Below are positions 2,447 through 22,300 of a stretch of 32,691 nt of DNA, piece by piece (positions within the stretch are counted from its first letter, which is position 1; each line of letters opens with the position of its first letter). The translations under genes were made by a program, and so were the position numbers. This DNA is from a virus: positions 1 through 32,691 of the IMG/VR virus record IMGVR_UViG_3300019458_000073. One strand, 5' to 3'. The notes under the pieces are model-generated. The model was not told the DNA's origin, did no database searches, and worked only from the letters and a program-made list of their open reading frames with translations.

Positions 2447-2747
2447 CAGGTTTGCTCTGATACTCCGCTGCCAGCTCGATCGACATCCCCGTCTCTTCTT
2501 CGCTGGGCGTGAGATATGTTTCCAACTGCTTCGGGTCCTCGGCGAACGGGTCGCGCTCGAACTCCGGCTTCATGCGCGGAGGAACGCGACCGGCGGTCAG
2601 GGCTACGAGACCCTTGAAGTCATCTTGCAGCCGGGCCAACTCCAACTCCGCGCGCTCGCGCCGATTCACCTCGGCAGACAGCTGCACGCGAAGTTGTGCG
2701 GCTTCGACTTGCAAGTTCAGGTATTCCAGTCTACCGATCCAAGGCAT
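2415..2747 (-). CDS. Small coiled-coil protein before portal
   Basis: A protein of 110 residues. I chose the ATG at 2747 because AGGAGG lies 9 nt upstream; this start overlaps the HNH gene end by 17 bp. A longer frame to 2858 would run deep inside the HNH gene and has no comparable ribosome site. The first half is a charged helix with coiled-coil character (VEAAQLRVQLSAEV, ERAELELARLQDDF). The C-terminal half is acidic and loop-like (PSEEETGMSIELAAEY). Its end overlaps the portal start by 32 bp. Possible roles are scaffold-like or packaging accessory; the family is not recognised. Confidence 0.65.
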   Translation of the reverse strand: MPWIGRLEYLNLQVEAAQLRVQLSAEVNRRERAELELARLQDDFKGLVALTAGRVPPRMKPEFERDPFAEDPKQLETYLTPSEEETGMSIELAAEYQSKPDGDGETGEAD

Positions 2748-3099
2748 ACCGCGCGGCCTCCTGAAGGATTTTAGGGTCGTCCCTAAACTTTCCGAGGCCC
2801 AAATTACACGCGTCACACAATAACCCGCGTACTCGCCCGGAACTATGACAGTAATCAACCACTAGACGACGTTTGTCAGGGGAAGTTTTGCAGATCGCGC
2901 AACGTCCGCCCTGCGTTTCTAGTAAAATGTCGTACTGTTCTTCCGTGAGGCCATAGACACGCTTCAAGGCTGCGCGCCATTGCCAGTACGACGCCCGCGC
3001 CCGGTTACGAAGCTTCCATTCTGCGTTTTGCGCAGCAGCGGCGCGGGGGTTCTTGTAACGTCCTAATCCTTTAGGGCTATACTCACCACGCGGACGCAT
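2731..3099 (-). CDS. HNH endonuclease, recombination endonuclease VII type
   Basis: A 122-residue protein with the endonuclease VII (T4 gp49-like) zinc/HNH core: Cys67-x2-Cys70, then VDYCH at 81-85, then RGLLCDACN with Cys95 and Cys98 as the second zinc pair and Asn99. Such free-standing genes are usually homing endonucleases or Holliday-junction/debranching nucleases. In the family the centre reads D-H-x-H; here the first His is Tyr83 (codon TAC), which may weaken catalysis. The gene overlaps the 3' end of TerL by 17 bp and the next gene by 17 bp, a typical site for a mobile HNH gene next to the terminase. The start at 3099 places the ATG inside the TerL end; a longer frame to 3159 lies wholly within TerL. 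Confidence 0.85.
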   Translation of the reverse strand: MRPRGEYSPKGLGRYKNPRAAAAQNAEWKLRNRARASYWQWRAALKRVYGLTEEQYDILLETQGGRCAICKTSPDKRRLVVDYCHSSGRVRGLLCDACNLGLGKFRDDPKILQEAARYALDR

Positions 3100-4627
3100 C
3101 CTCGATCTCCTCCCCGGGGCCGAACGGCTGCCCCCAGTACTCGTTGAGGACCTCGTCATCGAGGCCCGGCGTCAGGATCGACTGGCGCCCTTTCATCTTC
3201 GGAAGCGTGCTGCGATGCGCTATCCAGTGTTGCCGCGAGTGCTCGTCGAGGTGCTCCGGGATCTCGAAGGCGTCCCGGATCTCGTCGAGGTCGACCGCGA
3301 CGACCTTGGTCGGGAGGACGCTGAACGCGTACCCCGCGGCGTCGATCGCGTGGAAGTGCTGCTTCCCGACGATCTTGAGGTTCTTCGCTGAGCCGGTGTA
3401 GTCGAAGACAGCTTGGCCCTTGACGCGATACTCGGGGCCTTGACGAAGCAGGTTCGCGCACTCGGTGGACACGACGAGGCCGCGCCGGTGTGCGGCCGCG
3501 AAGAGCCCGACGCGCGCCCACTCGTCGCCATCAGACGGCGCCACGGGAAGGCCAGCAGCGATATACAGCTGCGCAACCGACACAATGCCTGTCTTGCGAG
3601 ATAGGCTAGTGCTGGACCAGGCACTCCGATCCATGACCCTACCGCGGAGAGGATGGCGTCCACAACGCTCCGAAATCGCCTCGGCATGCGCTTCGGCCTC
3701 GCGGCCTTCCTGCCAGTACTCCTGGTAGATGTACGGCGCGTTCGGCACGACGCCCTTGTACTCGACCTTGTCCGGGTTGACGGCGACCCACACCGCGCAC
3801 GTCACGCCAGTTGATCGCGCGGGGTCCACACCCATGAAGCGCGGCCAATGCGCCGGCGGCTCGAAGTGTTGGACGATCCGCAAGTCCGGGATCAACCGCG
3901 TCGTGCCAGCCGCCATCGTCGCGTAGACGTAGCGCTGCTGGATCTCCGCCGGCATCGAGAGTAGCTGCGCCCGCGCGCCTTCGTCCAAGTGCGGGTTGTC
4001 TAGCGAGGACCCACGCAGCAAACGGCGTGTGGCACCGGCCGTCGGCCGGCCGTGCGGCTTCTCGTACGTCAAGAAGCGCTTGCGAAGCCAGTTGTCGCCC
4101 TCGTCGTTGGCGATCGAGAGCACGTGGCGCTCGGTCGGCGGCACGGCGTTCAACCGGCAACGCAAGAGCAAGATCTGATACGTCGAGAAGTCGATTTCCT
4201 CGGCTTGGTCGATCGCGATCAGCGAGTACTCGAGGTTCTTGATCTTGTCAAGTTTTCCTGGCTCGAGGTTCGCGAACGTGATCTCAGACCCGTTCGTCAA
4301 GCGGCAGTGGTTCGTCCCTTCGCGGTAGTCCCACCGCTTCGGGAGCAGGAAGACCTCACGGAGGCCCTTCGCCTCGATGAGCTCGTAGAACTGCCGCTTG
4401 GTCGAGTCGATCAACTCGCGGAACGTCAGCCGCGCGACCAGGACGTTGGCGCCCGGGAAGCGCACGGCATGGCGGAACACGGCGGCGCACAGCGCGTACG
4501 TCTTGCCGGCGCCCATGCCCGTGACCGCGGCGACCTCGTACTCCCTGGCAAGGATCAAGTCCGCCTGCAGCTTCGAGTACTCCTTGCCGAGGAGGTGAGC
4601 CAGGCTCAGCTTCTCGGTGAGGTCCAT
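3083..4627 (-). CDS. terL: Terminase large subunit (TerL)
   Basis: A 514-residue packaging motor. The N-terminal ATPase domain shows a Walker A (VTGMGAGKT, residues ~35-43) and a Walker B with the terminase signature (SLIAIDQAEEI). The C-terminal RNase H-like nuclease domain shows FMGVDPA as its first acidic motif and HAIDAAGYAF as its last. The ATG at 4627 begins 2 nt after the upstream gene's stop; a longer frame reaching 4903 would lie inside that gene and read as low-quality Arg/Pro sequence. No clear ribosome site precedes the start, so coupling to the upstream gene is likely. TerS is separated from TerL by two genes, which is unusual. Confidence 0.92.
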   Translation of the reverse strand: MDLTEKLSLAHLLGKEYSKLQADLILAREYEVAAVTGMGAGKTYALCAAVFRHAVRFPGANVLVARLTFRELIDSTKRQFYELIEAKGLREVFLLPKRWDYREGTNHCRLTNGSEITFANLEPGKLDKIKNLEYSLIAIDQAEEIDFSTYQILLLRCRLNAVPPTERHVLSIANDEGDNWLRKRFLTYEKPHGRPTAGATRRLLRGSSLDNPHLDEGARAQLLSMPAEIQQRYVYATMAAGTTRLIPDLRIVQHFEPPAHWPRFMGVDPARSTGVTCAVWVAVNPDKVEYKGVVPNAPYIYQEYWQEGREAEAHAEAISERCGRHPLRGRVMDRSAWSSTSLSRKTGIVSVAQLYIAAGLPVAPSDGDEWARVGLFAAAHRRGLVVSTECANLLRQGPEYRVKGQAVFDYTGSAKNLKIVGKQHFHAIDAAGYAFSVLPTKVVAVDLDEIRDAFEIPEHLDEHSRQHWIAHRSTLPKMKGRQSILTPGLDDEVLNEYWGQPFGPGEEIEDASAW

Positions 4628-4629
4628 GG

Positions 4630-5280
4630 CTAGTAGAGCGCCATGCCCCCGGTGCGGCCGCCGCGGCGCATGCGGTCCTCGACGCCCTGGGAGATCGTGG
4701 TGCTCCGCGGGCCGCCGCTGATGAGCGGGGAAGCCTTGGTGCCCGGGAGGGGCTCGAGAGGCGCGGTCTGATAGGGCTGCGCGGCCGGCGAACTCGGGAG
4801 CCCGATCAGGCGCGGGGCCTTGGGCTGGCCTTGGAGGGCGCGGATGCCCGCACTGAGGCCAGCGGCGCCAATCGAACCGGCGGCCCCAAGGCCCATCTTC
4901 CAAAGATCCCGCTTGAAGCGCTCGTCTTCCATCAGGCCGCGCTCACCCCCAGAGGAACCGGTGGGCTGCCCGATCGTTGGCCCCGGCGTGTCCATACCAG
5001 GGGTAGTGGAGTACGCGAGGGTCCCCGGGTCGCGGAGACGATCGCTCAAGGAGACAGAAGGCGCACCAACGCCCATACCACCCTGCGCGGGCGCATAAGC
5101 CTGCTGCATCTCGTCGTCCGCAGTCCAGGAAGACGGGAACTCGGACCAGTCGAATCCGGGGGCCGAAGCGCGAGGGGCTTCGAAGCCGCCGAACGCAGGA
5201 CCTTCGCCGCCACCGAAAATCTGACTCCAGTCAGCGGTAACTGGCTGATAGTCAAGGGAAATCAGGCCTGCGTCGTACAC
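4630..5280 (-). CDS. Gly-rich protein of unknown function between TerS and TerL
   Basis: A 216-residue protein starting at GTG 5280 with AAGGGGG 8 nt upstream, in a TAGTG overlap with the preceding gene. The N-terminal half is acidic and Gly/Pro-rich with aromatic residues (DWSQIFGGGEG, DWSEFPSSW). A weakly hydrophobic segment (KMGLGAAGSIGAAGLSAGI) follows, then a Pro-rich linker, and a basic end (RMRRGGRTGGMALY). The larger neighbour has a similar composition and a comparable GGM ending, so the two may work together. A minor or internal virion protein is plausible; the family is not recognised. Confidence 0.65.
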   Translation of the reverse strand: MYDAGLISLDYQPVTADWSQIFGGGEGPAFGGFEAPRASAPGFDWSEFPSSWTADDEMQQAYAPAQGGMGVGAPSVSLSDRLRDPGTLAYSTTPGMDTPGPTIGQPTGSSGGERGLMEDERFKRDLWKMGLGAAGSIGAAGLSAGIRALQGQPKAPRLIGLPSSPAAQPYQTAPLEPLPGTKASPLISGGPRSTTISQGVEDRMRRGGRTGGMALY

Positions 5281-7013
5281 TAGACGGTCCCCCTTTGCCG
5301 CTGGCGCGCGGCCATCTGCTGCTGGTTACCCCCAGCCGGTCCACCAAAGTCGCGTCCTAGGCCAAATCCGGGCCGCACAGGGCCTCCAAACGGGGCACCC
5401 GCGGCGCCCCCTTCGCTTACCCGCATGCCGCCCTGGCGCTTGCCTGCTTCCGCGGCCTCTTGGGCGTTCTCGACCTCGGGCTTCGGGGTGCCGGATGCGC
5501 CGGTGACGAGGTTCAACGGGAGGCGCTTGCCTGCAGCGGTTCCCTCAGGAATGGGGACGGCTTCTCCTCCCGACACGACTTCTCCTCCCGGCGCTGTCCC
5601 TGTTCCAAAGCCCCAGCCTTGGAAATGAGGGCTGAGATTCTGTACGCCAAGGAGGTCCGCCAAGCCCTTCTCGTAATTGCCAGGCTGTAGGCCGGTTAGG
5701 GCTTGGTTCGCCTCAGACGACCAGGCACGCGGGTTGGTAGCCGACCCGAAGAACCAAGGGGACGGGATGGCTTGGTAGCTGTCTTCCACATCGCCAAAGG
5801 GCGGCGGCGTAAGAGGGAAGGCGGCCTCGGCTTGGCCTCGCGACCACTCCGGGTTAGCCGCCATCAGTTCGTCGACCACCCTGAAGGCACGGGCGTCCGC
5901 GTAGTTCTCAGTGAGGTACGGGGCGTACTTGACATTCTTGGAGAGCGGGTTTATATCGTCTATGTTGACGCTCGGGTCCCCCTCCGGGTTGGTGCGCGTG
6001 TCCCCCGGCGGTCGGAGCCAGCTGTAATCGGCACCAAAGGCCACTGCGGCAGATCTGGGATCCGCGTATGGATTAGCCGAAATGTCCATTCCACCCCTTG
6101 CCATGATGTCAGCCGCACGAAGAAGGCCGACATCGTAGGCAGACATTTGGGGCTTAAGGCGCTCCATGATAGCAGGGCCTTCTGGGAAGCCTTGGGCGTA
6201 CTCAGCAGGACCGGACCGACTGCTGGTGACGCCCCGCTTAAGGAAATCCTCCATGCCGCTGGCTTGGAAACGGCTTTGGATCGCCTGTAACTCCCCAAGA
6301 ACGCGCTGGGCTTCCTCAGGCGAGGCGTTGTTCAGCTGACGGAGCAGACCAGGGGCTCGGTTCCAATCGGCAATGCTACCCTCGATCCCACCGGTCAGCT
6401 GCCCCAACTTCTTTTGGGTCTTTTCGGCCGCTTCCGCCTTGCCCAACTGATAGTCGAGTAACTGGGACATGTACATGGCGGTGATAGGAAGCGTAACGGC
6501 GAGTGTCGGAGCAGACGCGCTTAAGCTAGCGCCCGCGCCCGCTAGACCACCACCCGCAGCCGCACCGGCTCCCAAACCAAGTGCGCCCGCCGCAGCAGCC
6601 GCAGCCGGCGGGGCAGCTAATTGGGTGGCGGCATCGATGATCATTCCAGTCTTAGGATCAACTCCCAAGCCCTTGGCAATCAGCCCAGGAGCCATCCCAA
6701 GGAGGGCGCCAATGCCAGAAGCACCAAAGGACTGTAGGCCGGCCGATAGGCCGCCAGAGGCGCCGGTAGCGGCACCAGCGCCCGTTGGGGCCGCCCAAGC
6801 ACTGTACGCGGCCTTCGCTGCATCGGGCCCCAATCGCGCCAACACCTTGTTTAAGTCCTCGAGGTCGAGTTTGCTCTTGGTCTTCCTCGGGGCATTCAAG
6901 CTGGAGGTGCCGGAGGATCGCTGGGGGGCGCCTCCGGGCTGGACGGCGAGTCCTCCACCGGGTTGAGGAGTGGGGCTTCCGCCGTAGGATCTAAGGGTGG
7001 GGCTTGTGGCCAT
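5280..7013 (-). CDS. Large Ala/Gly-rich protein, possible internal virion protein
   Basis: A 577-residue protein of unrecognised family. The order is a disordered Gly/Pro/Ser N-terminus; a short basic-acidic helix (KTKSKLDLEDLNKVLARL); a long Ala/Gly-rich hydrophobic stretch at ~110-185 that could insert in a membrane; a helical region with Gln/Glu (QLNNASPEEAQRVLGELQAI); a mixed central domain; and a Gly-rich basic tail. This architecture would fit an ejected internal virion protein, but that is inference. The ATG at 7013 overlaps the TerS end by 118 bp in another frame; both ends there are Pro/Gly-rich, and I see no better internal start. Confidence 0.65.
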   Translation of the reverse strand: MATSPTLRSYGGSPTPQPGGGLAVQPGGAPQRSSGTSSLNAPRKTKSKLDLEDLNKVLARLGPDAAKAAYSAWAAPTGAGAATGASGGLSAGLQSFGASGIGALLGMAPGLIAKGLGVDPKTGMIIDAATQLAAPPAAAAAAGALGLGAGAAAGGGLAGAGASLSASAPTLAVTLPITAMYMSQLLDYQLGKAEAAEKTQKKLGQLTGGIEGSIADWNRAPGLLRQLNNASPEEAQRVLGELQAIQSRFQASGMEDFLKRGVTSSRSGPAEYAQGFPEGPAIMERLKPQMSAYDVGLLRAADIMARGGMDISANPYADPRSAAVAFGADYSWLRPPGDTRTNPEGDPSVNIDDINPLSKNVKYAPYLTENYADARAFRVVDELMAANPEWSRGQAEAAFPLTPPPFGDVEDSYQAIPSPWFFGSATNPRAWSSEANQALTGLQPGNYEKGLADLLGVQNLSPHFQGWGFGTGTAPGGEVVSGGEAVPIPEGTAAGKRLPLNLVTGASGTPKPEVENAQEAAEAGKRQGGMRVSEGGAAGAPFGGPVRPGFGLGRDFGGPAGGNQQQMAARQRQRGTV

Positions 7014-9790: not shown

Positions 9791-10903
9791 ATGAGCGCAA
9801 AGACTCTCCGAGCAATGGCCGTCGCCGTTCAGGCTGGCGTCCCCGTGGTCGCCATTGGCGGCCCTGGTACTGGGAAAACGTCCGGGATCAACGCCCTTGG
9901 GGACGCGCTCGGCCTGCCTACCGAAATTGTCATTGCGTCCCTGCGCGAGCCGGCCGACTTCGGGGGTCTCCCCGTGGTAACGCCCAACGGCGTCAAGCTG
10001 GCCCCGCCCGCGTGGGCCGTTCGTTTGCATGAAGCGGGCAAGGGCCTGCTATTCATCGACGAAATTAGCACGGCCGCGCCCGCCGTCCAAGCCGCGCTCC
10101 TACGCGTCATTCTCGACCGCGTAGTGGGCGACTTGGCACTCCCGCTGGGCGTCCGTATAATCGCGGCCATGAACCCGCCTGAGCAAGCGGCCGGTGGGTG
10201 GGAATTGTCTCCTCCGTTGGCTAACCGTCTCTGTCACCTACCATGGGCGGTCAACACGAGCGAATGGCTGGAAGGTATGATGCAAGGCTTTCCTGCCCCA
10301 ACCTTCCCGCGCGTACCTACCGACTACACGGACGAATTGTGCAACGCGCGCGTCCTGATCGCGTCATTCATCCAGCACAACCAGACTGCGCTCTACCAGT
10401 TCCCGAAGAACGACTCCGACGCGGGCAAGCCGTGGCCGTCGCCGCGCTCGTGGACCATGGCCGCGACGCTCAGCGCTGCATGCCAAGCCGCGCAAACGGG
10501 CCTAGAGCTAGAGATTCCCCTGATCGCCGGGTGCGTGGGCGACGGGTACGCGCTTGAGTTCACCAACTGGCGCGACGCCCTTGACCTGCCGAACCCCGAA
10601 GCACTCTTGAAGGACCCCAAGTCGTTCGTCTGCCCGGAGCGCGGCGATAAGACTTACGCGGTACTCGCGTCGGTAGCGAGCGCGGCAGTCAATAACATGA
10701 ATAAGACGCGTTTTCTCGCGGCGTGGCACATTTTCAAGGTGGCCGCTGACGCGGGGAAGAAAGACATGGGTGCGGCAGCTGTTCGTACGCTCGCCCAGGC
10801 GGCCGGGAAAGAAGGCTACATGTCCGATCCTGACGTCCGTAAGGCCATGACGGAAAACCTTAAGCCGTATATCGACATTCTGAAGCAAGCGAGACTGTTC
10901 TAA
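9791..10903 (+). CDS. MoxR-type AAA+ ATPase
   Basis: A 370-residue AAA+ protein. Walker A GGPGTGKT is at 23-30, Walker B LLFIDEIS near 86-93, and a sensor-1 region reading AAMNPPEQA follows, the order and wording typical of MoxR ATPases. These act as chaperone-like remodelling rings with VWA-domain partners. The C-terminal ~150 residues are helical. A metallopeptidase-VWA protein is encoded 1.1 kb downstream in the same operon, with an unknown 242-residue protein directly adjacent (stop TAA then ATG, no gap). The target in infection is unknown. Confidence 0.85.
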   Translation: MSAKTLRAMAVAVQAGVPVVAIGGPGTGKTSGINALGDALGLPTEIVIASLREPADFGGLPVVTPNGVKLAPPAWAVRLHEAGKGLLFIDEISTAAPAVQAALLRVILDRVVGDLALPLGVRIIAAMNPPEQAAGGWELSPPLANRLCHLPWAVNTSEWLEGMMQGFPAPTFPRVPTDYTDELCNARVLIASFIQHNQTALYQFPKNDSDAGKPWPSPRSWTMAATLSAACQAAQTGLELEIPLIAGCVGDGYALEFTNWRDALDLPNPEALLKDPKSFVCPERGDKTYAVLASVASAAVNNMNKTRFLAAWHIFKVAADAGKKDMGAAAVRTLAQAAGKEGYMSDPDVRKAMTENLKPYIDILKQARLF

Positions 10904-11632
10904 ATGCCTAGGATACGATACGATTGCTCCCGTCAGACTTACTACGAAGTGTACCAAGAATACACGGTACGCTTCGAGCGGCGCCGCTACGACGCGTGCG
11001 CTAACGAGGTCCTGCGCCTAGACCCCACGGACTCGCTGTTTGACGCGACAACGCGCACGCTCAAGCGTGACCGTATCCGTATATGGGGGGGTGATCACCA
11101 GCCCCCGCGCCAAACCGTGTTATCGCCCGCCCAGGTCCGGGACGCGTTCATGACGAAAGGGAACGCCTCCGTCTCAGCCCGCAGGGCTCAGGCGCTGGAA
11201 TTGCACGCCGCGGGCTATGTTGGCCCCGTGAAGCCGGGCGAAGCACGCGCGCTCAAGAACGTGTTTAACGACCTGGGCATGCCCGACCTTGTGCGCCGTG
11301 GATGGTATGGCCAGACCAAAACCATACGGACGCGCACTACGTCGCGGTATATGATGCGCGCGTGGCTGCGCCGGAACCCTGCAAACACGCCGCAAAATAT
11401 ACCCGTGCGCGAGTACAAAGCAAACGTGCTCCAATACTGCTACGTGTTCCGGTCCCCGTTGCCTGAGGTGCCGTTTACCAAATTCCTCAAGCTTGCGCGC
11501 ATGTATCGCGGCGACAAGGGCGGCCTACGCGCGGCAGTAAAGGCCGTGCTCGCGAACCCGGACGCGCACAAAGAAATTGAGACGGTTGACGCAATCGACG
11601 TGTTAGCCGGTCTCACGGGAATGGATGGATGA
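10904..11632 (+). CDS. Unknown protein between MoxR and VWA genes
   Basis: A 242-residue protein, family not recognised. It is basic, Tyr-rich at the N-terminus (YDCSRQTYYEVYQEYTVRF), followed by helices with Arg/Lys and several Trp (RRGWYGQTKTIRTRTTSRY, MMRAWLRRNP). It starts on the base after the MoxR stop and overlaps the next gene by 4 bp, so it belongs to the MoxR/VWA cassette. It may be an adaptor or client of the ATPase ring; this is inferred from gene order only. Confidence 0.75.
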   Translation: MPRIRYDCSRQTYYEVYQEYTVRFERRRYDACANEVLRLDPTDSLFDATTRTLKRDRIRIWGGDHQPPRQTVLSPAQVRDAFMTKGNASVSARRAQALELHAAGYVGPVKPGEARALKNVFNDLGMPDLVRRGWYGQTKTIRTRTTSRYMMRAWLRRNPANTPQNIPVREYKANVLQYCYVFRSPLPEVPFTKFLKLARMYRGDKGGLRAAVKAVLANPDAHKEIETVDAIDVLAGLTGMDG

Positions 11633-11871
11633 TTGTCACGCACCATTATCTGCCGTGGCCCTCAGGGTGGCAGGGCCGCCACATAGAGCCCGAAGTGCGC
11701 GCATGGTCGGACGAAGAAATGGCCGTTGCGGTACTCGCGGGCAATGATCCGCGAGATAACAGCGCGCTTACACGGCGCCAGCATTGTTATTGCCCGCGCA
11801 TTGGTCGCGCGTACTGTAAAAAGTGTCTCGGAGCCGGTTGCTACTACAAAGGAAAGGACAAAACCACATGA
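11629..11871 (+). CDS. Small Cys-rich protein, LAG-motif member 1
   Basis: An 80-residue protein. SDEEMAVAVLAG at 27-38 is the shared motif found in at least eight small proteins of this window. A Cys-rich C-terminus follows (HCYCPRIGRAYCKKCLGAGCYY), able to bind one zinc. It starts in an ATGA overlap with the upstream gene and ends in another with the small membrane protein. The function is unknown. Confidence 0.65.
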   Translation: MIVTHHYLPWPSGWQGRHIEPEVRAWSDEEMAVAVLAGNDPRDNSALTRRQHCYCPRIGRAYCKKCLGAGCYYKGKDKTT

Positions 11872-11975
11872 TCTTAGTACTAATCGGTGGTATGATAGGC
11901 TTCATATTCGGCGGCCCGGTGGGGATGTTCATCGGGTTTGGTACGGTTCTTGCCCTGATCCTCGTGTGCGACTGA
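11868..11975 (+). CDS. 35-residue membrane miniprotein
   Basis: Nearly the whole product is one hydrophobic Gly-rich helix (LVLIGGMIGFIFGGPVGMF, then ALILVC), with only Asp at the end. An ATGA overlap with the upstream gene supports translation. It lies 8 bp before the VWA gene, so it could anchor the MoxR/VWA complex at the membrane; that is speculation. Confidence 0.5.
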   Translation: MILVLIGGMIGFIFGGPVGMFIGFGTVLALILVCD

Positions 11976-11982
11976 GGGAGCT

Positions 11983-13194
11983 ATGGCGCACGACACACTG
12001 CCCGAAATTATCCAAGCGGCGCGCATTCGCTGCGTCCAGGACCGCCCGTATCTAGCCGGGCTACTCTATCGCCTTGTCCCCGTCGCCAAGCCAGGTATTG
12101 GCACCCTGGCCGTCGATAAGTGGATGCGCCTGTACTTCGACCCCACGTGCCGGTGGACAGTGGAGCAGTATGCGACCGTTCTGTATCACGAGGCGGGTCA
12201 CGTGCTCCGAGACCATGCGGGCCGCGAAGAGTCACTTGGAATCACGCCAGATCAGCATTTGCGTTGGAACACGGCGGCCGACGCGGAAATAAACGACGAC
12301 TTGAACGCGGAAGGCGGCATGACATGGCCATTCCCGGTCGTCACACCGTCGGCGCTTGGACTACCGGACGGGCTGTTTGCTGAGGAATACTACGACAAGC
12401 TACCCAAACCACCGCCCGCGAAAGGCCCCAGCTCCGGGGCATGTGGCAGTGCAAGCGGCGCGCCGTTGCCATTCGAGGAGCCCGGCCCAAGTGGCAAGCC
12501 AGGCGCCGACGAGACGCGTGGCATCCTGCCCGCTGAACAGGATGCTATCCGCCACAAAGTCGCATCGGACGCGCGCGAGTATGAGCGCTCTGGTCGCGGC
12601 ACGTTGCCCGCGCACATGAAAGCCTGGGTGAAAGTGATCCTCAACCCCAAAGTGGATTGGCGCAAAGTCCTACGCGCGTCCATGCGCTCCTGTCTGTCGT
12701 GGGTAGCTGGGATGCAGGACTACTCGTATCAGCGCCCCGGTCGGCGTCAGTCCGTACTGCCCGACGTCGTAATCCCAAGCATGCGCCAACCCGCACCGCT
12801 GGTCGCGACCGTCATTGACACGTCCGGTAGCGTGTCCGACGCAGCCCTGAGCGCGGCGCTAGGAGAAGTGGCGTCGGTACTCAAACAGTGCGGCCAAAAG
12901 GACGGAGTAACGGCCATTGTATGCGACGCGGCGGTAGACTTCGCTAAGCGCGTATATCGGGCCGACCAAATCCAAGTAAGCGGGCGCGGCGGTACGGATA
13001 TGCGCGTCGGAATCAACCACGCGCTAAGCATGCGGCCAAAGCCGCACGTAATTATCGTGCTAACGGACGGAGACACGCCGTGGCCCGACACGCCCATACC
13101 AGGCGTGCGGCTGATTGCCTGCATCCTTGGTCAGGCGCGCGGGCTTGCGGGCGTACCGGAGTTTATCAAGGGGATACACGTTGACCTTAGCTGA
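11983..13194 (+). CDS. Metallopeptidase-like protein with C-terminal VWA domain (DUF2201 type)
   Basis: A 403-residue protein. The N-terminal domain carries a zinc-protease motif (LYHEAGHVLRDHAG, HEAGH at 69-73). A Pro/Ser-rich linker follows. The C-terminal domain (from ~250) is a von Willebrand A-like fold with a MIDAS: VIDTSGSVSD, later GRGGTDMRVG, then LTDGD. This arrangement matches the DUF2201 metallopeptidase/VWA family, which is commonly found next to MoxR ATPases, as here. GGGAG precedes the ATG by 2-3 nt. Possible roles are metal-dependent assembly or remodelling of a phage or host complex, or host-protein cleavage. Confidence 0.85.
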   Translation: MAHDTLPEIIQAARIRCVQDRPYLAGLLYRLVPVAKPGIGTLAVDKWMRLYFDPTCRWTVEQYATVLYHEAGHVLRDHAGREESLGITPDQHLRWNTAADAEINDDLNAEGGMTWPFPVVTPSALGLPDGLFAEEYYDKLPKPPPAKGPSSGACGSASGAPLPFEEPGPSGKPGADETRGILPAEQDAIRHKVASDAREYERSGRGTLPAHMKAWVKVILNPKVDWRKVLRASMRSCLSWVAGMQDYSYQRPGRRQSVLPDVVIPSMRQPAPLVATVIDTSGSVSDAALSAALGEVASVLKQCGQKDGVTAIVCDAAVDFAKRVYRADQIQVSGRGGTDMRVGINHALSMRPKPHVIIVLTDGDTPWPDTPIPGVRLIACILGQARGLAGVPEFIKGIHVDLS

Positions 13195-19295: not shown

Positions 19296-19730
19296 GTGAG
19301 GAAACCAGACGTCTGCCGGGGCTGCCCGCTTTACGATGACGGGGAAGGCTTTGTGCCTGACGAAATCGTGGACCCAGCGGCCCCGGTAGACGTCTGGTTG
19401 CAGAACCCCGGCGCGACTGAGGAATTGAAAGCGCGCCCGGCCGTTGGGGCAACGGGCGAAGACCTAAACGAGAAGTTCTTGCCCGCGGCTGGTCTCGAGC
19501 GCGGCAAGAACGTCAACGTTCGGAACGTCCTGCGCTGCCGGATGCGCGTGAATGGAAAGAAAGTTAACGACCTTCCCACGGGGAAGACCTTGATAGCGGC
19601 GATGAAGCACTGTCGGGTACACGACGTCGAAACGAAGGCTACCCTCGCGGTCGCCGCGGGGGCGCTCGCCTGGAAGGCATTTGGCGGCCCTGGGACGATC
19701 AGCGACTGGAGGGGGTTTTTGAGACCGTAA
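19296..19730 (+). CDS. N-terminal half of a split uracil-DNA glycosylase-like protein
   Basis: A 144-residue protein from GTG 19296. It shows the family 4 UDG layout: Cys7-x2-Cys10 (CRGCPLY), a degenerate motif 1 (LQNPGATEE where GEAPG is usual), RPAVGATGEDL, NVRNVLRC with Cys81, and HC at Cys106, giving all four Fe-S cysteines. It stops at SDWRGFLRP, before the essential C-terminal HPS-type motif. That missing part is found at the start of the polymerase gene at 20306. The stop TAA overlaps the HNH ATG (TAATG). The two halves probably once formed one UDG-polymerase protein and may still assemble. Confidence 0.75.
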   Translation: MRKPDVCRGCPLYDDGEGFVPDEIVDPAAPVDVWLQNPGATEELKARPAVGATGEDLNEKFLPAAGLERGKNVNVRNVLRCRMRVNGKKVNDLPTGKTLIAAMKHCRVHDVETKATLAVAAGALAWKAFGGPGTISDWRGFLRP

Positions 19731-20101
19731 TGGCTAGGGATTTGGCACGGAAGCGGGAGCGCGACCGTGCGCGGTGGGCTAGTCTTACCCCTGAACAACG
19801 CGCGGCCAAGAACGCCCGCGTGCGTGCGCGGCACGCCGCGAACCCCGGCTACTGGCGCAAGCGCAAGTACGACCTTACTTCGGAAGCGTACGACGCGATG
19901 AAAGAGGCCCAAGCTGGGCGGTGCGCGGTATGCAAAGAGGTGTTCACGAGTACACCTTCAGTGGACCACGACAAAGCAACGGGGCAGGTGCGCGGGCTGT
20001 TGTGCCACCAGTGCAACATCAACAGGGTCGGCGCGCATACAGTCGAAACCGCGCGCAAAGTCCTCGCCTATCTCGAACACTGGAGTCAACATGAACCGTG
20101 A
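19730..20101 (+). CDS. HNH endonuclease, endonuclease VII type (homing-like)
   Basis: A 123-residue protein. A basic N-terminal helix (RKRERDRARWASLTPEQRA) precedes Cys65-x2-Cys68, VDHDKATGQVRGLL and Cys92-x2-Cys95-Asn96, the endonuclease VII core. The centre reads D-H-D-K, with Lys82 in place of the second His of D-H-x-H. It lies exactly between the two halves of the UDG domain, consistent with a homing insertion, as known for free-standing HNH genes that split phage genes. It is about the same length as the copy at 2731-3099. Confidence 0.85.
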   Translation: MARDLARKRERDRARWASLTPEQRAAKNARVRARHAANPGYWRKRKYDLTSEAYDAMKEAQAGRCAVCKEVFTSTPSVDHDKATGQVRGLLCHQCNINRVGAHTVETARKVLAYLEHWSQHEP

Positions 20102-20309
20102 GACGAACCCAAAGGTTGACCTGGACGAAATCTACCGTGGAATGTTAGAGTTGTTAGTGCCGCACCGTGGCGCCCGTAATGCTTACTTGAAGGCGTGTGG
20201 TGGGGATGCGGCGGAGGCCATTGATAGGATGACTGAAGATATTACCGCCTTCCAACAGGGGAAGGCTTCTCATCCGTACAGTTCGGTGATGAACGACATA
20301 CCAACATGA
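20091..20309 (+). CDS. Small helical hypothetical protein in the UDG/polymerase insertion
   Basis: A 72-residue protein. GGAG lies 5 nt before the ATG at 20091, which overlaps the HNH end; the stop overlaps the polymerase ATG. The product is helical (VDLDEIYRGMLELLVPHRGA, AEAIDRMTEDITAFQQG). It is carried with the HNH gene inside the split locus; it could be a helper of the nuclease or serve to restart translation of the polymerase. No family is recognised. Confidence 0.6.
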   Translation: MNRETNPKVDLDEIYRGMLELLVPHRGARNAYLKACGGDAAEAIDRMTEDITAFQQGKASHPYSSVMNDIPT

Positions 20310-22300
20310 TCGCGCAGCCCTACAAGGCGGTCCTAGCGGCGTTGCACCCGGCCGACCTGTACCGCAACCCGGCGATGAAGCTTCCGTCGCTCCAAGACTG
20401 GAGCAAGGTGGAGAAATACCTCAATGGAACGTGGCCGGAAGCCGTCCCAGCCTTTGACGTGGTTGACCAGCCCGGGGGCGCCGATCGACTGGTTGCATGG
20501 GCGCGACTGGCTCGAAGCCGCGCGCCATTCGTCGTTGTGGACACCGAGTTCACGCGCGACACCCGGTATCTACTTACTCTTGGGCTTGGCTATCCTGGCG
20601 CTCCTGGAATTCAGCTTTGGTTCCGGGACTTCACCGCGGTCGACCGATCCGTTGTGCGTGGTGCCTTGCTCGAGCTTTTCGGACACGTCCCCGTAGTCTT
20701 CCAGAATGCGATGGCCGACGTGCCCGTGATCGAGCAGGCCATGGGCATTAGCTACAAGGATTACTACACGATCGAGGACACCATGCTCGCCCACGCGGTC
20801 CTGTGGAGCGAGTGGCCGCACGACTTGGGCTACTTGGCTAGCCTCTACGGCAAGCATCCGAAGATGAAGCACCTGAGCGTTTCGCAGCCACACCTGTACA
20901 ACTGGGGCGACGTGCTGGATACCATGAGCACGTGGCAGGGAGTTGAACGTGAGCTTAAACAAGACCCCCTATCGGAGGCGGTGTACCGTGAGCAGTCGCT
21001 GCCTCTGGTGCCGATCCTTCTACGACGCGCGCGGAAGGGCATACGCGTCGACTCCGGCGCCGTTACCCAGGCGGTTGACGACCTCGAAATGCGCCAGGAT
21101 TGGGCTTCTGGAGTTGCTGCAGCAGCGGTCGGCCGCACGTTCAACATCGGGTCGGAGAAGCAACTCAAGCACTTCTTCTACGAGGAACGGGGCTACCCGG
21201 TCCAGAAGGACAAGGACAAGAAGGTATCGATCGGCAGCGACGCGGTTGCTAAGCTTCGCCAGCACGTTGGCCCGGCGCCCGATCTTGAGTACGAAGCCAA
21301 GGAGGGGTTAGACATTGCGCTCGCGGAAGCCCGGATCGAGCAAGGCGCGGACCCGGTCCTCGAAGCGCGGGTCGTCTACGCGGCGGCCAAGCAAGAACTC
21401 ACGCACTTTCTTGAGCCCCTCCGCGGCAAAGAGCGCGTCTACCCGAGCGTCAAGATCCACGCGCAAGCCAGCGGGCGCTGGTCGATCACGGACCCACCGC
21501 TCCAGCAGTTCCCGAGCTACTTGCAAGACCTCCTCATCCCGGACGTCGGTGAGGCGTGGATCGGGTGGGACTGGGATCAGATTGAGTTGCGGCTGCTGGC
21601 AGCATTGGCTCAGGACGAACCATACTTGCGGGCTTTCGTGGCTAACGAAGACGTCCACACGCTCAACGCCTGTGACATCTTCGGGCTCCCGAGACCTCCT
21701 AGCGCGGTCGAATCCGACCTCGCCGGGCCGGTTTGCGCAGCTTGGCGCGCGCAGGTGGGATGGGCCGGAAAGGACGACCTTCGGCGAGCGTTTGCTAAAC
21801 GCTTTGTATACCGGCTTAATTACGGGGGTGATCCTCGTATGGCTGGGGATATCCCGGGTGCTCGGGCGCTTGGCCTCACGCCGGGGAAGCTGGTAGATGC
21901 CTCCCGACGGTATCTGGGGGCCCATCCGGCGATGACAGCGTGGCGTGTCCAGGCGGCTACGGAGGCGCAAACGACGCGCGTGTCTCGAACCTTCATGGGC
22001 CGCCGCCGACGCCTTCTGGGTGATGGCAGAGGCGTTATCCGGGAAGCATACAACCACCCGCTTCAAGGCGGCGTCGCGGACATCTTGAACCTGTGTACCC
22101 TCAGGATCGCGGAGAAGCTGGGCGCCCAAGGGACGCTCGTGTACACCGTCCACGACTCGGCGTGGTGGGCAGTGCCAAATTCGATGGTCGAGGAGGCTAA
22201 GGGGATCATCCATGAAATCATCACCGCGCCGTGGCGGATCGGCGGGGTCGAAGTCGTCTTCCCCGCCAAGTTCAAGCCCGTCCGCGTGTCCCATGATTAA
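20306..22300 (+). CDS. polA: Family A DNA polymerase with a UDG C-terminal piece at its N-terminus
   Basis: A 664-residue protein. Residues 1-50 (PYKAVLAALHPADLYRNP, then LQDWSKVEKYL) match the end of family 4 UDG, where VxTxHPSxLLR is expected. The 3'-5' exonuclease domain follows: DTEF at 79-82, QNAMAD with Asp138, and YNWGD near 205. The polymerase domain shows motif A (DWDQIELR), motif B (KRFVYRLNYGG) and motif C (VHDSAWW, 615-621). Motif C usually reads HDE; here Ser618 replaces Glu. This is the replicative polymerase. The start at 20306 overlaps the preceding small gene and has no ribosome site of its own, so coupling is likely. Confidence 0.92.
   Translation: MIAQPYKAVLAALHPADLYRNPAMKLPSLQDWSKVEKYLNGTWPEAVPAFDVVDQPGGADRLVAWARLARSRAPFVVVDTEFTRDTRYLLTLGLGYPGAPGIQLWFRDFTAVDRSVVRGALLELFGHVPVVFQNAMADVPVIEQAMGISYKDYYTIEDTMLAHAVLWSEWPHDLGYLASLYGKHPKMKHLSVSQPHLYNWGDVLDTMSTWQGVERELKQDPLSEAVYREQSLPLVPILLRRARKGIRVDSGAVTQAVDDLEMRQDWASGVAAAAVGRTFNIGSEKQLKHFFYEERGYPVQKDKDKKVSIGSDAVAKLRQHVGPAPDLEYEAKEGLDIALAEARIEQGADPVLEARVVYAAAKQELTHFLEPLRGKERVYPSVKIHAQASGRWSITDPPLQQFPSYLQDLLIPDVGEAWIGWDWDQIELRLLAALAQDEPYLRAFVANEDVHTLNACDIFGLPRPPSAVESDLAGPVCAAWRAQVGWAGKDDLRRAFAKRFVYRLNYGGDPRMAGDIPGARALGLTPGKLVDASRRYLGAHPAMTAWRVQAATEAQTTRVSRTFMGRRRRLLGDGRGVIREAYNHPLQGGVADILNLCTLRIAEKLGAQGTLVYTVHDSAWWAVPNSMVEEAKGIIHEIITAPWRIGGVEVVFPAKFKPVRVSHD

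Follow-up and report, generated by a model that had tools for sequence, protein, structure and literature searches.

How does a phage come to carry a UDG gene that stops inside its domain and, beyond two further genes, a polymerase gene with an odd N-terminus, and do the two products still belong together? This question is raised by a locus in a viral DNA stretch of 32,691 nucleotides (IMG/VR record IMGVR_UViG_3300019458_000073; the whole stretch is called the window in the following). An earlier note had proposed that a single UDG-polymerase gene was split there by an HNH gene plus a small gene. Its coordinates, translations and overlaps (1–11 bp) all proved right on rechecking the sequence: four overlapping frames occupy positions 19296–22300 of the + strand and share, in order, 1, 11 and 4 bp. 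The features are listed below, where L002 (IMG/VR 3300025164_000134) denotes a relative in which both parts are fused.

19296–19730, + strand: UDG N-terminal part, 144 aa (GTG start at 19296, TAA at 19728–19730)
19728–20320, + strand: intervening stretch relative to the fused L002, 593 bases, from the UDG stop codon to the shared proline codon
19730–20101, + strand: endonuclease VII-type HNH endonuclease, 123 aa (Pfam PF02945, Endonuclease_7, 2.2e-17; PHROG endonuclease VII, 3e-22)
20091–20309, + strand: frame of 72 aa without detectable homologues, overlapping the HNH gene by 11 bp
20306–22300, + strand: family A DNA polymerase, 664 aa (Pfam DNA_pol_A, 2.4e-37; PHROG 17 DNA polymerase, 4e-66)
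20318–20422, + strand: UDG C-terminal part, polymerase residues 5–39, the final ~35 residues of the domain (from structure and from TIGR00758, which reaches L002 residue 174, aligned to polymerase residue 39)
20525–20863, + strand: 3'-5' exonuclease domain (PF01612, residues 74–186, E 0.0016, below the cut-off; 5.9e-7 in L002)
21098–22297, + strand: polymerase domain, limits approximate (Pfam PF00476 from residue 265)

With overlaps of 1–11 bp among all four frames, their translation is probably coupled in a single series. The ATG of the HNH gene at 19730 shares one base pair with the UDG stop codon (TAATG), the polymerase start (ATG at 20306) lies in a 4-bp overlap with the 72-aa frame (ATGA), and no promoters or terminators above chance were detected inside the cassette. 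The UDG half ends in SDWRGFLRP, directly followed by TAA, at the position of a beta-hairpin turn; it contains LQNPG as motif I, as well as C7, C10, C81 and C106, the full set of four cysteines conserved in family-4-type UDGs. Taken alone, it is barely scored by Pfam (E 0.03), and it matches the NCBIfam type-4 UDG models TIGR00758 (6e-8) and NF040953 (5e-8) over its first 87 residues. The polymerase N-terminus reads MIAQPYKAVLAALHPADLYRNPAMK (also written MIAQPYKAVLAALHPADLYRNP). Its first four residues, MIAQ, derive from the insert side and are followed by the strand and helices that come after the turn, including HPA at 20345–20353. The replication module as a whole, with Sak4-like, SSB-like, polymerase and metallophosphoesterase genes, is syntenic with that of L002. 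Elsewhere in the window, positions 9791–13194 encode an AAA ATPase and, two genes on, a DUF2201/VWA-like metallopeptidase, which have no connection to the split.

The search for intact homologues, suggested by the earlier note as a check, succeeded: L002 carries UDG and polymerase in one frame of 798 residues, with a polymerase 60% identical to that of the window. When L002 was used as query, its residues 2–140 fell on 19296–19727 and its residues 139–180 on 20315–20440, with no gap. The joint reads DWRGFPHPSKPVLATLHPADLFRNP in L002 and DWRGFLRP / YKAVLAALHPADLYRNP in the window, and the window polymerase N-terminus scored 174 against L002, compared to a maximum of 48 among 1000 shuffles; at the level of sequence, the joint is thus far above chance. 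The proposed in-register join therefore stands as to its exact register, with no residue missing in the L002 alignment, but not in its precise form of LRP plus PYK: as one proline is common to both ends (LRP / QPYK), the register is LRP plus YK. Further fused homologues are L004 (802 aa; one phage represented by the four contigs L004–L007), L001 (825 codons; Manatee Spring phages), L012, L013 and L031. A search (A5) of the records of four relatives found one UDG apiece, so these four hold no second intact copy. No polymerase relative was found in bacterial or archaeal genomes, and the sole UDG match there, on an archaeal contig, was dismissed because it covered 10 residues only. As a separate observation, the polymerase itself is divided in its thumb region in L013 (at 5434, with overlapping stop and start) and in L012 (at 5628–5638, with a short overlap); the latter break is possibly a single-base error and was left out of the analysis.

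That the first ~39 residues of the polymerase complete a family-4-type UDG fold was borne out by a model of the fused relative L002, which served for the fold test in place of the two window chains. The model of residues 1–180 (pLDDT 85.5, pTM 0.84) matched the Thermus family 4 UDG 1ui1 with a Z of 19.3 and an rmsd of 2.5 over 168 aligned residues, and the UDG part of the phiLo phage polymerase (9qhs, a solved structure) with a Z of 13.1. The alignment to 1ui1 covers residues 2–177 and so runs across the break (140/141); in L002, the family-4 fold extends over the whole domain. Consistently, a full-length model, with low confidence in its UDG part, places the break between strands 136–139 and 142–146, in agreement with a hairpin turn. 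The cysteines (4/4) and motif I lie on the first chain and HPA on the second. Intact homologues and fold together bear out that a UDG-polymerase gene is split inside its UDG domain.

The affiliation of this domain needs some care. L002 matches family 4 UDG at 3e-11; the curated NCBIfam UDG_fam4 cut-off of 125.3 bits is missed by both L002 (52.7) and the window half (32.5), which makes the window UDG, as judged by sequence, a clear relative of UDG_fam4 that stays below full membership by the cut-off rule. Like the family 4 enzymes 1ui0/1ui1, 1vk2 and 4zbx, it has the whole fold (Z about 18–19) and the four cysteines, which are invariant in all nine lineages described below and, by analogy, presumably bind a cluster. 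Unlike these enzymes, it is fused to a polymerase, resides on two chains in three lineages, and has glutamine in place of the motif I glutamate, with [LGA]QNPG instead of GExPG in 9/9 lineages. As this glutamate is absent, we speak of a family-4-type fold and not of an active family 4 enzyme. The C-terminal motif, previously described as HPS-type and essential, is HPA in the window, and "essential" is too strong, because relatives read HTA, HVA or HLA. The order of domains, UDG first, then exonuclease and family A polymerase, is shared with the polymerases of SPO1, Shbh1 (PMC5135824) and Thermus phage phiLo; these, however, are single-chain, and phiLo features the canonical motifs GEAPG and HPS, in contrast to the QNPG of the window's family. 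A processivity-type role has been suggested for the UDG domain of SPO1-type polymerases (PMC5135824). The domain described here may work as a glycosylase whose chemistry is altered, sense uracil or contribute to processivity.

The window is not the only phage with such a break. Nine lineages were found, six of them fused at the turn and three, namely the window, L011 and L030, broken at the same turn. Besides the cysteines, QNPG and the proline preceding the break are invariant in all nine; the three breaks all follow an invariant WRGxxxP, and the inserts are unrelated to one another. In L011 (3300036861_000596, 3992–6509), the UDG half ends WRGFLLP-TGA; at the same codon position, a frame of 51 codons whose product looks like a small membrane protein separates it from the polymerase. 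In L030/L035 (3300050515_000013), the UDG half (L035:1498–1992) is intact and ends in WRGFLLP plus a charged tail of 20 residues, while the polymerase (L030:3908–5968) begins just before VLGTLHLADLYRNP; about 4 kb of genes, two of them glycosyltransferase-like, lie in between. Fused L031 (L031:3344–5992) has the longest turn, with ~45 residues where other members are broken. Among fused members the turn thus varies from 4 to ~45 residues in length, which marks it as a permissive place.

The phylogenetic tests speak on how often the break arose. The window clusters with fused L002 and L004 (support 100/100). Uniting the three split members in one clade was rejected (p-AU 0.0035; 0.010 with the polymerase alone). 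A break shared by L011 and L030 received an AU p of 0.31, and the two may indeed have one in common. One old split that was later mended by recombination is also conceivable, and the safe statement is therefore that there were at least two break events. Repeated fission at a permissive turn appears to be the best reading of these sequences.

What, then, broke the gene in the window? The earlier note had held the HNH gene responsible. Its product is weakly similar to T4 endonuclease VII and retains two Cys pairs, DH and N, i.e., a nuclease domain with its catalytic pattern outside an intron or intein, and the gene is absent from the same site in the uninterrupted alleles (L002, L004, L001, L012, L013 and L031). 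It is thus, judging from sequence, very likely a candidate free-standing homing endonuclease. Endonuclease VII-type genes occur in other telling places: one relative adjoins and precedes a T7-like DNA polymerase gene with a 4-bp overlap, another lies between tail genes of a Klebsiella phage, a third within the predicted intein of a large terminase (L021:514–2901, Gordonia phage Angelicage), and a second copy of the type in the window itself (2731–3159, - strand; PF02945, 9e-25) overlaps the terminase gene at its 3' end. By analogy, such placements are a habit of homing endonucleases. Relatives less than 60% identical were present in 1376 phage records, peptide patterns recovered no HNH relatives in viral contigs, and the particular insert of HNH plus small gene was found as a single copy, in the window only, by searches that covered its more distant relatives. 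A target-site duplication was considered for CCGTA/CCCTA at the insert edges, which is too short to count.

The cut by the HNH gene is plausible as proposed, but in L011 and L030, whose genes are interrupted at this very turn, the gap contains no HNH gene, and the one in the window may therefore have entered an already tolerated break. In this scenario, to which we assign a serious though less than even chance, fission at the flexible turn came first, the HNH and small genes settled later, and the chains still assemble. The range of turn lengths in fused members fits it as well, and a like ambiguity exists for gene 43 of T4-like phages (44RR versus phage 25), where cause and passenger are indistinguishable because one break contains an endonuclease gene and another an untranslated stretch only (PMC2988022). 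Against it, the grouping of the window with fused L002 and L004 makes its break look young and separate, and the way the HNH start overlaps the UDG stop (TAATG) agrees with a direct insertion, comparable to the UAAUGA of T4 mobE (PMC2988022), with which the window also shares coupled overlapping frames. We regard the HNH gene as the likely cause of the break in the window.

The codon usage of the small gene prefers the annotated reading frame to the other two, and no clear relatives of the 72-aa protein emerged from Pfam, PHROG or further homologue searches. Its GC content of 52%, compared to 63% for the window, makes a separate arrival probable. Its start (20087–20094) and that of the polymerase (20302–20309) both read CAACATGA, a match half accounted for by the ATGA starts; repeat and low GC together are a weak hint that the small gene arrived on its own.

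Two further explanations would remove the split altogether. One chain could be restored if the insert were a self-splicing intron or formed part of a split intein, and HNH endonucleases do occur in group I introns within polymerase genes of the SPO1 type, as do endonuclease VII-type ones in inteins. The insert, however, is filled by coding frames from its first bases, and the UDG half runs straight into a stop codon. Group I and II introns were rejected, as no ribozyme core was found: Rfam intron families gave no hit in the insert at E up to 1, and its fold energy equals that of shuffles (z 0.19), leaving no excess RNA structure. An intein was rejected likewise, with no intein sequence at either insert edge, and we consider restoration by splicing extremely improbable. 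The same holds for an assembly chimera or sequencing error, which is hardly credible in spite of the window being a single metagenomic contig that was compared with more distant relatives: the four well-formed overlapping genes sit in a syntenic replication module shared with L002, and independent contigs are broken at the same place.

Moreover, the UDG half could be a dying remnant, with the polymerase chain working alone and no reassembly. This would agree with the complete exonuclease and polymerase in the second chain, with the variable second motif and with QNPG in motif I. The three split phages, however, hold intact UDG half-frames that keep the four cysteines and are as conserved as in fused members. 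In fact, the UDG half shows 10 changes unique to the window and 14 unique to fused L002, and exonuclease and polymerase together show 59 and 54, respectively, so that the UDG half of the window is not accelerated by these sequence counts. UDG-half identity minus polymerase identity was 0.107 in fused-fused, 0.093 in mixed and 0.084 in split-split pairs, and between L011 and L030 the detached UDG half is 60% identical, compared to 41% for the polymerase. A small excess of unique changes in the C-terminal UDG stretch (7 in the window versus 2 in L002) counts against the reassembly that we favour. No dN/dS is claimed since synonymous change is saturated, and should the insertion in the window be recent, the absence of decay in the UDG half would carry little weight. 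Overall, we consider a dying remnant unlikely.

Fused homologues, an exact register and conservation of both halves are found together at this locus. Conserved halves, each with half an active site, favour continued function and assembly: most likely, the two chains associate after translation and rebuild the UDG domain on the polymerase. For the assembly suggested in the earlier note, the conservation in three split phages is thus indirect support. The explanation that we consider best, and quite probable, starts from an ancestral single gene that combined 3'-5' exonuclease and family A polymerase with a UDG domain of the family-4 type. An endonuclease VII-type HNH gene would have inserted by homing and broken it at the turn of the UDG beta-hairpin; the small gene would have come along with it or later. 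The first chain would then provide cysteine cluster and motif I, and the second the last UDG strand and helices on the N-terminus of a complete exonuclease-polymerase. Both would join after translation, as described for the split NrdA of phage Aeh1.

In Aeromonas phage Aeh1, mobE, a gene for an HNH homing endonuclease, splits nrdA, and the NrdA chains are active together (PMC2988022). As there, a DNA-metabolism gene (an essential one in Aeh1) is interrupted by a free-standing HNH-type gene in the window; the two NrdA chains of Aeh1 form one working enzyme, and those of the window may do likewise. The window differs in its target, a UDG domain attached to a family A polymerase, in an HNH gene of the endonuclease VII and not the Mob type, in its extra small gene, and in that the same site was hit by unrelated inserts in other phages. 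T4 genes 39/60 and 43 are further published split genes, and 43A and 43B co-purify (PMC2988022). As with the latter in phages 25 and 44RR, a replicative polymerase consists of two chains; unlike in family B gene 43, the break in the window runs through the attached UDG domain and leaves exonuclease and polymerase domains whole.

That homing endonucleases split genes is already known; what is new is this target, along with a site that is used more than once, and for specialists the surprise lies in one turn being broken repeatedly. More tentatively, and on balance doubtful, the turn could act as a repeated fission point at which, in several lineages of phages, the cluster-bearing half docks as a separate conserved protein onto the UDG stub of the polymerase. 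If so, this would be a stable, perhaps selected two-chain design, in which a sensor module comes on and off the polymerase and the intervening genes are freely exchanged cargo. For annotation, a UDG half and an odd polymerase N-terminus should be taken as belonging together. With three unrelated inserts at one site, the same protein occurs in nature in a series of fused and split forms, which allows testing how a single-domain fold survives a cut. The series also bears on what sets break positions, invading genes or permissive sites, and on the role of UDG for phage polymerases, be it excision, uracil sensing or processivity.
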